64,000 bases of DNA from Candidatus Tumulicola sp. (GTDB taxonomy: Bacteria > Vulcanimicrobiota > Vulcanimicrobiia > Vulcanimicrobiales > Vulcanimicrobiaceae), in the NCBI GenBank assembly GCA_036490475.1, contig DASXDT010000005.1, positions 1-64,000 of the forward strand, in the 5' to 3' direction. Made by a program: the position numbers and the translations under genes. The notes under the pieces were generated by a model. That model saw only the letters and a list, made by a program, of their open reading frames with translations. It had not been told where the DNA came from and ran no database searches. Shown one piece after another: positions 28,602 to 35,059 of this stretch (the first letter of the stretch is position 1; every line of letters begins with the position of its first letter).

Positions 28602-29408
28602 ATGGCGTACGCCGCGCGGGTCGTGCTCGACTCGGTTAGTCCCGCGGGCGTGCGCCTCACCACATTAGAGGTCACGTTCCCGCGGTTCGTATTGGCCGAG
28701 TTCAATACGCATCGCGTATTTTCGCGCAACTCGGCGAGTTCGCGCGCAATTCCAACCAACAAACTGATCCAACGCGTGCTGGACGAGCCCGCGATTCCGT
28801 TGGAGTGGGGGCGCAACAAGGCGGGCATGTCGTCCGATGAGGTGCTGGCGTACGAAGATGGCGTTGCGGCCGAGCGTATCTGGCTCGACGCGCGCGATGC
28901 AGCCGTCGAACGCGCGCGCCAGTTGCTCGAACTAAAGGTGCATAAGCAGCAGCTGAATCGATTGCTCGAGCCGTTCTTATGGCATACCGTGATCGTGACG
29001 TCGACCGAATGGGACAATTTTTTCAATCTGCGTTGCGCGCCGCAGGCTCAGCCGGAGATCCGTGCGGCGGCCGTGCGAATGCGCGAGGCGTTGGGCGAGA
29101 GTCTTCCCGCGCCGGTCGGAATCGGCGAGTGGCATTTGCCGTTGATGCAAGATGACGAACGATCGTTACACGTGGAGACGCAGAAGAAGGTCTCGGCCGC
29201 GCGTTGCGCACGCGTTTCGTATCTCACCCACGACGGCAAGCGTGAAATTGAAAAAGATCTCGATTTATGTGCGCGGTTGATGATCGATCGGCATCTTAGC
29301 CCGTTCGAACACGTCGCGTCTCCGGCCGAAGATGACGAGTTTCGCGCAAACTTTCGCGGCTGGCAGCAAATGCGCAAAGAGGTAGAAGCGCCGGTCGTCT
29401 TCCAGTGA
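28602..29408 (+). CDS. thyX: flavin-dependent thymidylate synthase
   Basis: 268 residues. The ThyX signature is present as THRVFSRNSASSRA (residues 36-49), equivalent to the RHR-x7-S motif that binds dUMP and FAD. The C-terminal RLMIDRHLSPFEHVA carries the other conserved His/Arg pair. ThyX makes dTMP from dUMP using methylenetetrahydrofolate and NAD(P)H. The insert between these motifs is longer than in the Thermotoga protein, matching the larger ThyX subgroup. The stop shares a base with the next ATG (TGATG). Confidence 0.9.
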   Translation: MAYAARVVLDSVSPAGVRLTTLEVTFPRFVLAEFNTHRVFSRNSASSRAIPTNKLIQRVLDEPAIPLEWGRNKAGMSSDEVLAYEDGVAAERIWLDARDAAVERARQLLELKVHKQQLNRLLEPFLWHTVIVTSTEWDNFFNLRCAPQAQPEIRAAAVRMREALGESLPAPVGIGEWHLPLMQDDERSLHVETQKKVSAARCARVSYLTHDGKREIEKDLDLCARLMIDRHLSPFEHVASPAEDDEFRANFRGWQQMRKEVEAPVVFQ

Positions 29409-30649
29409 TGCGGCGGCGCTTCGTTGCAGTGTTGGCCGTGTTGGTAGCGATGACGTGCGTCGTGCCGGCGCGAGCGCCGGCGCAAACGGCCGTCGTGCTA
29501 ACGCCGGCGACCCGACAAGCTGCGCTTACCGCAATCGAGGGCGCGATTCGCACGACGTACGTTTTTCCGGAGATGCGCGCTCCGCTGATCGCAAAACTCG
29601 ATAGCCAGGCGGCGACGCACCACTACGACACCGCCGATCCGAACGTGTTTGCCGAGCGGGTAACCGACGACATGCAGTCGGTGGCCCACGACGGTCATTT
29701 GTATATGACCTACGACCCGACCGAATACGCAGCGTTGCTGGCACCGCCGAAAAGCGATGCTGGAATGGACGCTTACTATCGCGCGATCGCGATTCGTCAG
29801 AATAGCGGGCTGACCGAGATGAAGATTCTTCCGGGTAATATCCGCTATTTGAGACTGAGCGCTTTCGACTATGCGCCAGGCATTACGACGGCAGCTTATG
29901 ACGATGCCGGCCGCTTTTTACACGGCGGCGATGCCATCATCATCGATTTGCGTGGAAACGGCGGTGGTGACAGCGATGCAGCCGACTATTTTGGGAAGGC
30001 GCTGATCGACCCCAATTCCGGCAAGCCGATCTACATTTTGGTCGACGGGCACGTCGCATCGGCGGCCGAAGCCGTTGCGTACGGCGCGCAAGCCGCGAAA
30101 GAAGCGATTATCGTGGGTAGTACAACCTACGGCGCCGCCAATAACAATAAGAAGCTGCCAATCGCGCCAGCGTTCGTGCTGAGCGTGTCGTACAACCGCC
30201 CGATCAACCCGATCACGAAGACCAACTGGGAAGGCACGGGTGTCGTTCCGAATATCCGCGTCGCGGGCAGTACGACGTTGCCGGTCGCGGAACTCAGCGC
30301 GCTCGATGAACTGTCGGTGCTGCCTGGCACCAGCGCGTCAATGCAGGCGGAATACACATGGGCTCGGCAGGGTGTCGATGCGGAACTTCACCCGGTCAAA
30401 CTATCGAACGAGCAACTAGCGCGCTACGCGGGCCGCTATCGCACCATCGTCATTCGAGCCGTTAACGGCCAACTTCGACTAACGCGAACCGACCGGCCGC
30501 GCTGGGAAAAGAATATTCTACTCGTGCCACTAAACTCGAATGGTCTGTTCGCGGTCACTGCTTTTGACGATCTGCGTCTGCGCTTTCATACGAATTCGTT
30601 CGATTTTCTGTACGGAAACGAAGACGACCGGGACACTTTTACTCGCTAA
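29408..30649 (+). CDS. secreted S41-family (C-terminal-processing) peptidase
   Basis: 413 residues with a signal peptide ending in PARAPAQ. The core matches S41: AIIIDLRGNGGGDSDAADYF and DGHVASAAEAVAYGA, where the Ser after VA is the nucleophile position. No PDZ domain is visible, so it belongs to the PDZ-less, tail-like interphotoreceptor-retinoid-binding type group. It presumably cleaves periplasmic peptides. The ATG at 29408 overlaps the thyX stop. The 3' end overlaps the convergent regulator gene by four bases. Confidence 0.85.
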   Translation: MRRRFVAVLAVLVAMTCVVPARAPAQTAVVLTPATRQAALTAIEGAIRTTYVFPEMRAPLIAKLDSQAATHHYDTADPNVFAERVTDDMQSVAHDGHLYMTYDPTEYAALLAPPKSDAGMDAYYRAIAIRQNSGLTEMKILPGNIRYLRLSAFDYAPGITTAAYDDAGRFLHGGDAIIIDLRGNGGGDSDAADYFGKALIDPNSGKPIYILVDGHVASAAEAVAYGAQAAKEAIIVGSTTYGAANNNKKLPIAPAFVLSVSYNRPINPITKTNWEGTGVVPNIRVAGSTTLPVAELSALDELSVLPGTSASMQAEYTWARQGVDAELHPVKLSNEQLARYAGRYRTIVIRAVNGQLRLTRTDRPRWEKNILLVPLNSNGLFAVTAFDDLRLRFHTNSFDFLYGNEDDRDTFTR

Positions 30650-33588
30650 ACCGTCTGTCCGCTCGTCACTCCAGACCCAACTAGGGTTTCGAGATGCGGA
30701 GACGGCTTCGATCCGAACTCTTCTGCGACAGCGAGAGCGTGCTGTCGAAGGGCCGAGGCAGCTCCAAATTGATCGTCGACCTTTTGAAATGCACGAATCG
30801 TAAGTTCGCAGGCTGTTTCGTCCGAAGAATCTCGATCGAACAACCGTTTTGCGTGCGCGAGCGCGATCGGCCATTCGCCGCGGCGCATGGCGTCTCGAAT
30901 TTGCGCCAGAGCGGCATCGCGGACGAGGTCTCCCAGGCGCGGTAAGATCGGGGCGAACCATTCCCAGCTCCGACTAGAGGTTTCGATAGCATCAATGCTG
31001 ACGATTGCGGCGAACTCCAATGCCACGCGGTCCTCGTGGGACATCGTGTGAACGCCGGACGCCAAGCGACGCAATAGCATCGCAAGCTCTGCGATATCAA
31101 TTGTGACCTGCGGCGCTATTCCGCATTGCCTTTCAGTCGTTGATATCACACCTGGGCCGATACGAGTTCGCAGGCGGAGGAGATACGCCCGTAAGTTATT
31201 GCGCGCGCTATCAGCAGATCGATCGGGCCACAGTCGTTGCGATAGTTCCTCTCGGTCGATTATTCGTCCGGCAACCGCCAACGCAGCAAGCAATTCCATC
31301 TCACGAGGCGCCAGATCAAGCTGATTGCCATCGCGCAATACCTTCATCTCCAGAACCCTGATCTCGACCTTACAGCCCGTAGAGCGCGAGCTGAATCTAG
31401 AACAAAAGTCCCGAAGCATCCCCGTCTTGGAGGCTCGTGCTTGTATGGCGGCGACGCTACTAATAAGGGCTGATGACTTGGTCTTTCGCGCGCACCGCAT
31501 CGCTGCACCGAATAGTTCCGCACTCGCACCGTTTGTTTCGAGAACGCCGCAACAAATTCGTGCGAGCGTTTTATAAAACCACGAGCCGCTTTGATCGGCA
31601 GCCTGGATAGCACTGCGCGCACACCGTAAAGCGTTTTCTGATGTGTTCGATCGCGACGCTCCTATTAAAAACGCCATGCAGCGAAATGCCAACGTTTCGT
31701 AGCCGACCGGCTCGATGTGACCTCGACCGCGGCAGCATGCTAGTAGGTGTCTGAAACCGTCGATTGCGTTCGGCCGCACGGTGTTTTCAAGCTGCGCGAT
31801 CCGCACATCGAACCCCGTGTCGTCGCCCCAAAACCACGCATGGAAAATGCGCTCTGCGGCGACCAGGGCGCGCACCAACGGCAGCTGCGATCTAGCTGCG
31901 GCCTCATGCGCGTCGTCGAGTGCGATTGCTTCAGCTTCTCGATCGCCGAGGCAGCGTAAGTTTCGAGCGGCAACGTGAAAGTTCCAGAGAGCTCGCGTGG
32001 CCGGAACGTCGAGTGCCAATCCGATCTGTTGCGCCGCTCCGTCGACGTCGGTCGGAAGCCCTTGCCAAACGCTGAGGGCTGTGCGCCACATAAGGAGGAG
32101 GGTGAAGCCGATCGAGTCTTCCGCATGGAGCGACGATTCAAACTCCTCGAAAACTCGGTAGATTTCCTCGAACAAGCCCAAGATGCCGGCGACGTTCGCG
32201 TACGAGCCCACGACGCTTACGCGAAGCATGAGCGGTCCCTCAAGTCGTATTGAGCGCCAAACCGCGCGGGCTTCGTTAAGCCAATCTTCGTTTGGGCGAG
32301 TGTAGATCCACGCGAGCGCGGACGACGCCCACAGCACCGGGTGTCGAACCGTCGTTGAGGCGTCGATTCGCGCGATGAGTAACGCTGCCTCCAGAGAGGG
32401 GGCATCGAATAGGTACACACCGGCTAGCGAGTACTGACTGGATAAGGACTCAAGTGAGGCTGCTGCGGCGTCTGCATCGCCAGCCAATAAGAACACCTGG
32501 GCAGCGCGCAATAAATCATCTTTAGATCGATGTTTGCGCGCGATGTCGAGCAGCACTGCGGCCTTCCGCGTCGCATAGCGCCGCTCGATTGCGGCTCTCA
32601 GTAAAGGGTGAACCGCGAGATGATTGCCATCGTTCGACGTTACGATCGGTATCGGCCGCAGCAAGTCGTGAATATAGTCGCTAACATCATCCGCACCCAA
32701 CGAACGTGCGATATCGGCGAAGGTGGCATCTTCCACGAACGTTGCCGCGATTATGGCTTTCAGTTGATCGGGTGAAAGCCGCTCGACAATCTCATTTTGT
32801 AGAAAGTCCTCAAGATTAGCATCGTCGGAGTTCGTGAAAAGATCAACCGCCGATGCCATGCGGCCCGCTACTGCGGACCGCATCAGGAGCAATACTGCGA
32901 CGGGCCATCCGAGGGTACGCTGTTCGATCGTATCTAGCTCCGAATCGCTGATCGCCGATCGGGCCGCGAGCTCCGTAATGGTATTCCGGTCGAACCGCAG
33001 GAGCTCGGCCGTCAGAAAGATCGTCTCGTGTGGCGAGGCGTATCGAGCGGTGCGAAGTCCGATTGCGGTGCGCGAACATAGAGCGACCCGGCGGGTTGGG
33101 TGACGCCAGGAAAGTAGGTCATTCAGTAGGCTTCGGATCTCCGGCTTATCGTCCAGCCATTCCAAGTGGTCGATGACAAAGAGTGAATCGTCGGCAATCG
33201 CCTCCCGCCACGCGCGAAGGGCGATATCGCGTAGGCGCCCGCCATCACGACCGGCGCTCAACACGTCTTGCCCGAGCGATAACGCTCGGTCCCCGTCTTC
33301 CTCCGCCAGGCCCCGCAGCAAGATCTTCGCTGCGTGTTCAACGGAGTCCACGCCATAAAAATCGCAATATGCGCGACGGTCGCGCCGAGCAGCTAGAAGC
33401 TGGGCAACTGTCGTCTTCCCATAACCTGCTGGAGCGACGATGACATAAAGCCGAGGCATAACGTGCTCGGCCATAGCGAGAATGCTTGGCTTTAATAAAG
33501 CTCGTGGCTGGAATTGCTCCAGATTTCTTTCGGCCACCGCTTCCTCCGCAAATCCGTGAGCCACAAAATTCGGCACCCGCGCGCCCAC
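30646..33588 (-). CDS. large transcription regulator: MalT-type ATPase, winged helix and BTAD domain (SARP-like)
   Basis: 980 residues, GTG start. Order: STAND/MalT-type NTPase with Walker A APAGYGKTT (residues 52-60), a Walker B-like LFVIDHLEWLDD, and a long helical-repeat middle. Near residue 735 comes an OmpR-type winged helix (RVLEMKVLRDGNQLDLAPRE, then LSQRLWPDRSADSARNNLRA). The C-terminal bacterial transcriptional activation domain includes ECELTIRAF-like helices at its end. AfsR-type SARPs have the DNA-binding part first; here it is last. It should be a signal-gated activator. It diverges from the GloVer lipoprotein gene whose promoter has SARP-type repeats. Confidence 0.85.
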   Translation of the reverse strand: MGARVPNFVAHGFAEEAVAERNLEQFQPRALLKPSILAMAEHVMPRLYVIVAPAGYGKTTVAQLLAARRDRRAYCDFYGVDSVEHAAKILLRGLAEEDGDRALSLGQDVLSAGRDGGRLRDIALRAWREAIADDSLFVIDHLEWLDDKPEIRSLLNDLLSWRHPTRRVALCSRTAIGLRTARYASPHETIFLTAELLRFDRNTITELAARSAISDSELDTIEQRTLGWPVAVLLLMRSAVAGRMASAVDLFTNSDDANLEDFLQNEIVERLSPDQLKAIIAATFVEDATFADIARSLGADDVSDYIHDLLRPIPIVTSNDGNHLAVHPLLRAAIERRYATRKAAVLLDIARKHRSKDDLLRAAQVFLLAGDADAAAASLESLSSQYSLAGVYLFDAPSLEAALLIARIDASTTVRHPVLWASSALAWIYTRPNEDWLNEARAVWRSIRLEGPLMLRVSVVGSYANVAGILGLFEEIYRVFEEFESSLHAEDSIGFTLLLMWRTALSVWQGLPTDVDGAAQQIGLALDVPATRALWNFHVAARNLRCLGDREAEAIALDDAHEAAARSQLPLVRALVAAERIFHAWFWGDDTGFDVRIAQLENTVRPNAIDGFRHLLACCRGRGHIEPVGYETLAFRCMAFLIGASRSNTSENALRCARSAIQAADQSGSWFYKTLARICCGVLETNGASAELFGAAMRCARKTKSSALISSVAAIQARASKTGMLRDFCSRFSSRSTGCKVEIRVLEMKVLRDGNQLDLAPREMELLAALAVAGRIIDREELSQRLWPDRSADSARNNLRAYLLRLRTRIGPGVISTTERQCGIAPQVTIDIAELAMLLRRLASGVHTMSHEDRVALEFAAIVSIDAIETSSRSWEWFAPILPRLGDLVRDAALAQIRDAMRRGEWPIALAHAKRLFDRDSSDETACELTIRAFQKVDDQFGAASALRQHALAVAEEFGSKPSPHLETLVGSGVTSGQTV

Positions 33589-33615
33589 TCCATTTAGCGC
33601 CGCGGGTTCGTGACT

Positions 33616-33647
33616 GTAACGGCTTTGTAACGGTTGATTTTTATTAT
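33616..33647 (+). promoter_or_regulatory. predicted SARP-type promoter: two 11-bp-spaced heptamers and a -10 box
   Basis: GTAACGG occurs at 33616-33622 and again at 33627-33633, an exact 11-bp period with a 4-bp spacer. Exactly 8 bp later comes TATTAT (33642-33647), which differs from TATAAT at one position. This is the arrangement described for SARP-activated promoters such as those of DnrI and ActII-ORF4. An inverted CGTTACA lies at 33648-33654. It faces the lipoprotein gene at 33728, and the SARP-like regulator is encoded divergently. Confidence 0.6.
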
Positions 33648-33727
33648 CGTTACAAGCTCCCGCGACCGGCCTTCGAATTGCCGGCCGCGTCGCTTACCAA
33701 TGGTTGCTGTTTAGGAGGTCCAGACCC

Positions 33728-35059
33728 ATGCGTGGTTCATCGCGAATCGTCAAAGGATACGGTCTGCCCGCGCTCGTCGTGATGTTTGGGCTAACGGGTT
33801 GTGGCTCGAATGCCGGCCCGCCCATCGAACCCGCCATGCACTGGGCGGTCCCGGCGTCCTCGTCCAAAGTCAAAGACGTGGTCGCAGATTTGCAGCCGGA
33901 GAGCGCGGTTCCGTACGGGGGCCTGCTTCTGGGCTCCGACGGTCAGATGTTCGGTACGACATCGCAAGGCGGCACGAGTGCCAGTGGCTTCGGTAGCGTC
34001 ATCGCTTACGACGGATCCGGCGTGCACACGGTCTACGCTTTCCGTGGAATGCCCGATGGGGCGGCGCCCGAAGCCGGCCTCGTGCAAGATTCGTCGGGCG
34101 TGCTTTACGGCACGACCACTTACGGAGGGGCCGTATGCCCGGCGGGATGCGGCACGGTCTTCGACTTGATCCCTAATGGATCGACCTATACCGAAAAGGT
34201 GCTGTACGCTTTTCAAGGCGGGCAAGACGGCGCTTATCCCATCGGCGGACTTCTGATCGACAAGAGTGGTGCGCTGTACGGAACCACCTTCCAAGGTGGC
34301 GGCGCTGCAGCATGTAGCGGGGGCTGCGGGATCGTTTTCAAGCTCGTGCGTTCCGGCAAAACCTATAAGGAGACCGTCGCTCATCGTTTCAAAGGCGGTC
34401 AGGACGGCGCAAATCCTGTCGGCACGTTGATTGCGGACAGCGCGGGCACCGTTTACGGAACGGCAAAGAGCGGAGGTAACAGCAGTGCTTGTTCGGGCGG
34501 CTGCGGCGTCGTCTACAAGCTGAAGCGCTCCGGCGCTACCTACGTGGAAAGCGTCGTTCATAGCTTTGCAGGCGGATACAGTGACGGGGCTACTCCGCGG
34601 TCGGCTTTACTTGCTGGAAAGCACGGCACATTGTACGGCACCACACTGTACGCCGGGAGTGGTGCGAATGCCGGCGTCGTCTTCGAACTTACGCCGTCGG
34701 GAAAGGAATACTCTGAAAAAGTAATATTCAAGTTCAGCGGCGGTAAAACCGGTGCACAGCCGCACGATGAAAACGGCCTAATCGCCGATACGAAAGGCAA
34801 CATCTACGGCACTGCCAGCGCGGGTGGAACTGCCAAGAGTTTCGGCGTTGTCTTTAAGCTAACGCCTTCCGGCTCCCAATACAGCGAGACGGTGCTTCAC
34901 GAATTCCAAGGCCCGGCGAAAGATGGCGAATCACCCTGGGCCGGCGTAATCATCGGAAGCGATAAAAATCTGTGGGGCGTAACGCCCTACGGCGGATCCG
35001 GCACTTGCGACACGAGCGGCGTCGCGGGTTGCGGCGTACTCTTTCGGCTTACGCCGTAA
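33728..35059 (+). CDS. GloVer-repeat lipoprotein (TIGR03803-type propeller)
   Basis: 443 residues from the ATG at 33728, with GGAGG nine bases upstream. The lipobox is FGLTGC. The mature protein is made of about seven repeats with the pattern GA.P.GGLL.D..G.LYGTT..GG....G.VF.L, the Gloeobacter/Verrucomicrobia repeat. This forms an extracellular beta-propeller-like array. A binding or adhesion role is plausible but unproven. It is the only plus-strand gene directly downstream of the predicted SARP promoter. Confidence 0.85.
   Translation: MRGSSRIVKGYGLPALVVMFGLTGCGSNAGPPIEPAMHWAVPASSSKVKDVVADLQPESAVPYGGLLLGSDGQMFGTTSQGGTSASGFGSVIAYDGSGVHTVYAFRGMPDGAAPEAGLVQDSSGVLYGTTTYGGAVCPAGCGTVFDLIPNGSTYTEKVLYAFQGGQDGAYPIGGLLIDKSGALYGTTFQGGGAAACSGGCGIVFKLVRSGKTYKETVAHRFKGGQDGANPVGTLIADSAGTVYGTAKSGGNSSACSGGCGVVYKLKRSGATYVESVVHSFAGGYSDGATPRSALLAGKHGTLYGTTLYAGSGANAGVVFELTPSGKEYSEKVIFKFSGGKTGAQPHDENGLIADTKGNIYGTASAGGTAKSFGVVFKLTPSGSQYSETVLHEFQGPAKDGESPWAGVIIGSDKNLWGVTPYGGSGTCDTSGVAGCGVLFRLTP

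Follow-up and report, generated by a model that had tools for sequence, protein, structure and literature searches.

SARPs have been studied as switches of antibiotic gene clusters in Actinobacteria. At a SARP promoter a pair of effector domains binds, touches sigma region 4 and turns on transcription. Their promoters follow a rule in which direct repeats recur at 11 or 22 bp and the 3' repeat lies 8 bp from the -10 element, as set out for AfsR of Streptomyces coelicolor, a large SARP whose afs box spans -40 to -19 and whose activation in the full-length form is enhanced by ATP (PMC10936776). The nearest described system to the one considered here is the SARP-LAL regulator PimR and the pimM promoter, where two or three heptamers are separated by 4-bp spacers, giving an 11-bp period (PMC5930380). 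OtcR has been examined with a reporter in E. coli (PMC4393881). In the 64,000-nucleotide stretch of DNA that we analysed (the window), a regulator with a SARP-like effector and a gene for a GloVer-repeat protein diverge from an intergenic region that carries repeats of the same period. From the sequence and from structural modelling, we put at about three in four the probability that this element serves the regulator beside it as operator-promoter, and that the effectors of this STAND-type SARP, once released by a signal, would bind the repeats and switch on the GloVer gene.

A STAND-type regulator with a C-terminal effector

The regulator gene occupies positions 30646-33588 on the minus strand and encodes 980 residues as called; gene calls here are mechanical open reading frames with approximate starts, and the start codon of this one is uncertain. 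Its product has a MalT-like ATPase, a TPR-like middle and a C-terminal winged helix with a BTAD domain. The Walker A motif VAPAGYGKTT (33409-33438, minus strand) was located by sequence and alignment, and the APAGxGK P-loop is present in the alignment of the regulator family, all 13 aligned members of which match the MalT model over the N-terminal ATPase. Matches to AAA_22/AAA_16 occur in most members, those of the window regulator falling just under the cut-off, and weak TPR matches occur in several. The family thereby combines a P-loop NTPase with a helical/TPR sensor region, the two features by which STAND ATPases are recognized.

The C-terminal region (30649-31431, minus strand) holds an OmpR-type winged helix (about residues 735-825) followed directly by a BTAD domain (about 840-972), which is the arrangement found in SARP proteins. 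Trans_reg_C was detected in 12 of the 13 family members and BTAD likewise in 12, the BTAD match of the window regulator having an E value of 0.0018, which does not reach the Pfam cut-off for the whole protein but just does so in the genome scan. A profile built from 22 C-terminal regions found AfsR (8hvr, 1.9e-19) as its best PDB match and EmbR (2fez, 2.1e-15) as the next, and the AlphaFold model of the region (pLDDT 89.9) returned six Foldseek matches against the PDB at E <= 0.001, all of them to AfsR, as the effector in its transcription complex, or to EmbR. Because profile and modelled fold alike rank AfsR, then EmbR, as closest, we identify the effector as a SARP domain, but one that in AfsR and PimR occupies the other end of the chain. 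The first-pass annotation had described the product of the divergent gene as a winged-helix/BTAD protein, and both the profile matches (Trans_reg_C and BTAD) and the fold, closest to AfsR, bear this out.

The likeness to AfsR thus extends from the winged helix and BTAD fold to the STAND ATPase and TPR that share the polypeptide with it. The SARP part, however, is N-terminal in AfsR, as it is in PimR and the small SARPs, whereas here it is C-terminal and stands behind an ATPase that is MalT-like; repeat sequence, phylum and target differ as well. With MalT and the LAL-type STAND activators the regulator shares its N-terminal ATPase and the C-terminal position of the effector, but those proteins end in a LuxR-type HTH, which is replaced here by the winged helix and BTAD. 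EmbR of Mycobacterium tuberculosis has the same two-domain effector fold (2fez, 2ff4) but carries an FHA domain and no STAND ATPase.

Repeats and promoter geometry in the window and its relatives

Two direct copies of TGTAACGG lie on the plus strand at 33615-33622 and 33626-33633, so that the GTAACGG heptamers, read directly in the sequence at 33616-33622 and 33627-33633, recur with a period of 11 bp. An 8-bp gap (33634-33641) separates the second copy from TATTAT (33642-33647, plus strand), the predicted -10 element of the GloVer promoter. If transcription starts near 33654, as we predict, the two copies would fall at about -39 to -32 and at -28 to -21. The first-pass annotation had proposed this repeat and its distance from TATTAT, and the positions agree with it; period and distance are both those of the SARP rule. 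The resemblance to the afs box, where direct repeats of 11-bp period likewise stand about 8 bp before the -10 and the -35 is weak or absent, is close in this respect too: TATTAT is without a -35 match, and a search of 33500-33800 gave no sigma-70 -35/-10 pair. A third half-site, inverted and reading CGTTACA on the plus strand (33648-33654, minus strand), is absent from the earlier account. It was not seen in the counterpart of the element in a relative from another genus (G066), a scan of 60 genomes with the three-element pattern that includes it gave no other convincing match, and it is possibly incidental. The Shine-Dalgarno sequence of the GloVer gene, AGGAGGT, follows at 33713-33719 on the plus strand.

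A search for further copies in the genome, which the first-pass annotation had suggested, gave one strict site. Both GTAACGG-N4-GTAACGG and the promoter pattern KGTAA-N6-KGTAA-N11-TANNNT have a single exact copy in the 3.32-Mb genome; with up to two mismatches, the former has 26 matches there versus 25 for the reversed-pattern control.

Homologues of the regulator were found by an alignment-based scan of genome contigs, where a scan with the single protein gave none. The resulting set contains 54 non-identical homologues, most of which share 24-34% identity with the window regulator, and the relatives that carry them belong to Candidatus Eremiobacterota / WPS-2. Upstream of these homologues, in the sense of the regulator, TTAC[AG] pairs occur at a spacing of 11 in 20 loci; at other spacings from 6 to 44 there are none, except at 36 in one locus and at 21/22 and 32/33, which are multiples of about 11. 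In 271 kb of coding sequence of the regulators and in 208 kb further upstream, searched on both strands, no pair had a spacing of 11. A measure blind to the sequence of the repeat gave a similar picture: 13 loci have a 7-mer repeated at spacing 11, where 300 dinucleotide shuffles gave 1.45 on average and never more than 6. In five loci (L017, L121, L159, L161 and L162) four copies follow one another at 11 bp. The site is not universal among the homologues, since the patterns used detect no repeat in the scanned region of 30 of the 54, among them the nearest tree neighbour of the window regulator (L108). The homologue tree itself is deep, and several of its nodes have support near 0.8.

The distance to the -10 element can be compared across these loci by searching, in the divergent direction, for [GT]TAA-N7-GTAA followed by TAnnnT at a given gap. 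The layout of a pair, 8 bp and TAnnnT occurs in six diverged loci, namely the window, L097, L107, L112, L036 and L084, and when the gap was fixed at 8 bp and the period of the repeats was varied, no loci were found. The gap is 9 bp in two loci and 19 bp (8+11) in five; it is 6 bp in a further five, all close relatives from one genus. In a larger group TAnnnT lies 40 bp from a strong pair, and another CGTAAG copy intervenes. A point against the operator-promoter reading is that the most conserved group, the loci with a LuxR-type divergent gene, has gaps of 19 or 40 bp between repeats and TAnnnT in place of 8; among LuxR-type loci, L159 with its four copies has a gap of 19 bp and L097 one of 8 bp. 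After the -10 of the divergent LuxR-type gene, the same five loci that hold four copies share a conserved leader, GCCAGCCGAGCCACGGAAAGG, and a similar one is seen in L014 and L089.

Together with the effector fold and the peak at spacing 11, the 8-bp gap leaves the reading of the site as a SARP-type promoter beside a SARP-like regulator, first put forward in the first-pass annotation, well supported; so too is its placing of such a system outside the Actinobacteria, the host phylum being Ca. Eremiobacterota. It is hardly credible, by comparison, that the repeat arose by chance in an AT-rich intergenic patch. A blind scan of 117 genomes with KGTAA-N6-KGTAA-N11-TANNNT does give 16 matches versus 6 for the reversed control, an excess of only about 2.7-fold, but chance would poorly explain the spacing-11 peak, the 8-bp gap upstream of diverged homologues or the retention of the layout in G066. 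Three of the 15 blind-scan matches outside the window adjoin BTAD regulators (a second site in G066, and one each in G054 and G020), and several of the others may be chance.

A different concern is that 11-bp repeats need not be bound by the neighbouring regulator. OmpR/PhoB-type winged helices also bind tandem repeats of about 11 bp, so our argument depends on the SARP fold and the 8-bp gap and could not be made from the period alone. Another regulator of that type could thus occupy the site, and the adjacency would then reflect control of the STAND regulator by a third protein. We think this very improbable, as one strict site in the organism's own genome is unlike the regulon of a global response regulator, and the association is with homologues of this particular regulator. 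A set of BTAD-family regulators (30 loci, mostly AfsR-type) was considered as possible carriers of the repeat, and no GTAA/TTAC pairs at 11 bp were present in the 350 bp before their frames, for which reason we place the element with the C-terminal-SARP group.

The recognition helix was a poorer guide to the repeat. It differs between the window and G066 regulators though their repeats are alike, and an ARN-type helix, which mostly accompanies the repeat, fails as a predictor in L084 and L036 and is present without the repeat in genus g9; the association is confounded by descent, and we do not claim it. The g9 homologues (for example L086, L092 and L119) have, instead of TTACA repeats, a conserved upstream element of approximately GTGTNCAAAGTAA-N6-GTTAATGTAAGC, possibly a diverged operator.

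Divergent genes and the proposed switch

The predicted target in the window (33728-35059, plus strand) encodes a protein of 443 residues with the tandem 50-residue repeats of TIGR03803 (217.9 bits against a cut-off of 44), a hydrophobic N-terminus and a lipobox, LTGC, read from the sequence. Regulator and GloVer gene recur as a divergent pair in one other genus, that of G066, whose GloVer protein is 38% identical to that of the window. The first-pass annotation had named loss of the repeats in relatives that keep both genes as grounds for rejecting its reading, and the sole such relative found retains the layout as TTTAACG-N4-TGTAACGG-8 bp-TACGCT, its first copy degenerate. Most element-bearing loci have another partner. 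Of 23 such loci, 18 have a short LuxR/GerE-type regulator as the divergent gene; the remaining five are the GloVer loci of the window and G066, two loci with a secreted protein of 555-585 residues and one in which the gene is unclear. A 24th element-bearing locus, L107, faces another winged-helix protein. The element thus tracks the regulator, not GloVer. The resemblance to PimR is accordingly one of arrangement: the repeats are intergenic beside the regulator, and the divergent gene of most Eremiobacterota relatives is LuxR-type, as pimM is. Unlike this system, PimR controls antibiotic production, its heptamer is CGGCAAG and its operator is without -35 overlap, and the predicted target in the window is a GloVer lipoprotein rather than a LuxR-type protein.

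The idea of a complete one-gene regulon built around GloVer is not established by these comparisons: what is conserved beside the element is the regulator, the divergent gene is mostly LuxR-type, and G066 has an exact second site, 3.5 kb away, before a small lipoprotein gene. In the window's own genome, where there is only one site at strict settings, the regulon may nevertheless be very small.

If the element follows the regulator while the divergent gene varies among LuxR-type, GloVer, secreted and winged-helix proteins, the repeats might mainly be an autoregulatory operator through which the regulator represses or tunes its own gene, any effect on the divergent gene being secondary or absent. 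The last repeat in L017, L159 and L162, which stops a few bases before the regulator start, would fit such a role. We nonetheless consider it unlikely, because six diverged loci have TAnnnT 8 bp away in the divergent direction and five more have it at 19 bp, which points to a promoter of the divergent gene, and because the second site in G066 stands before the lipoprotein gene and not before a regulator.

We therefore favor a role for the element as an operator-promoter of the divergent gene. In the mechanism that we propose, an ATP- or ligand-driven signal would release the C-terminal SARP effector, the OmpR-type winged helix with BTAD, from the ATPase/TPR part of the STAND regulator. Two effector domains would then occupy the two TGTAACGG repeats as neighbours on the same face of the DNA and dock RNA polymerase at a promoter that has a -10 but no usable -35, and the GloVer lipoprotein gene would be switched on. 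Since this site is also close upstream of the start codon of the regulator, about 30-60 bp away, feedback on the regulator gene is also likely.

On a broader scale, it seems to us rather probable that SARPs of inverted order, with STAND first and the effector last, form an old system of Ca. Eremiobacterota that uses the actinobacterial 11-bp/8-bp geometry, and that the operator remained with the regulator as its targets changed between a LuxR-type relay and surface lipoproteins. If so, the SARP mode of activation is tied neither to antibiotic clusters nor to Actinobacteria. The SARP effector fold and promoter geometry are in any case present here in a distant, mostly uncultured phylum, with reversed domain order and predicted targets unrelated to antibiotics. 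The same geometry, 11-bp repeats followed by 8 bp to TAnnnT, would provide a testable rule for finding targets of STAND-SARPs from sequence alone, and the family may offer a comparison system for how an effector docks polymerase from the opposite end of the ATPase.

Several smaller observations accompany these results. About 14 GloVer-repeat genes are present in the 3.3-Mb genome of the window (G000), and only the window copy adjoins a homologue of the regulator; the others were ruled out as targets, the element being found in 0 of the 13 upstream regions checked. In G054, a site made up of several GTAA repeats, with TACGCT at a gap of 8 bp (L111; G054:C48:3803-3835), lies downstream of a regulator homologue, points back to it and precedes a small gene whose product begins MAKDKHEQ. 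The exact pattern site in G020 (L183:3976-4008; G020:C17) is located between a lipoprotein operon of CsgG type and a SARP of AfsR architecture whose start is 411 bp away, and may be real or chance. The matched regulator of several homologues (for example L013, L017, L091, L092 and L094) contains one in-frame stop, TGA or TAG, which could be a frameshift, a pseudogene or alignment run-over. Finally, the window regulator and an S41-peptidase gene (29405-30649, plus strand) are convergent and overlap by 4 bases (30646-30649).
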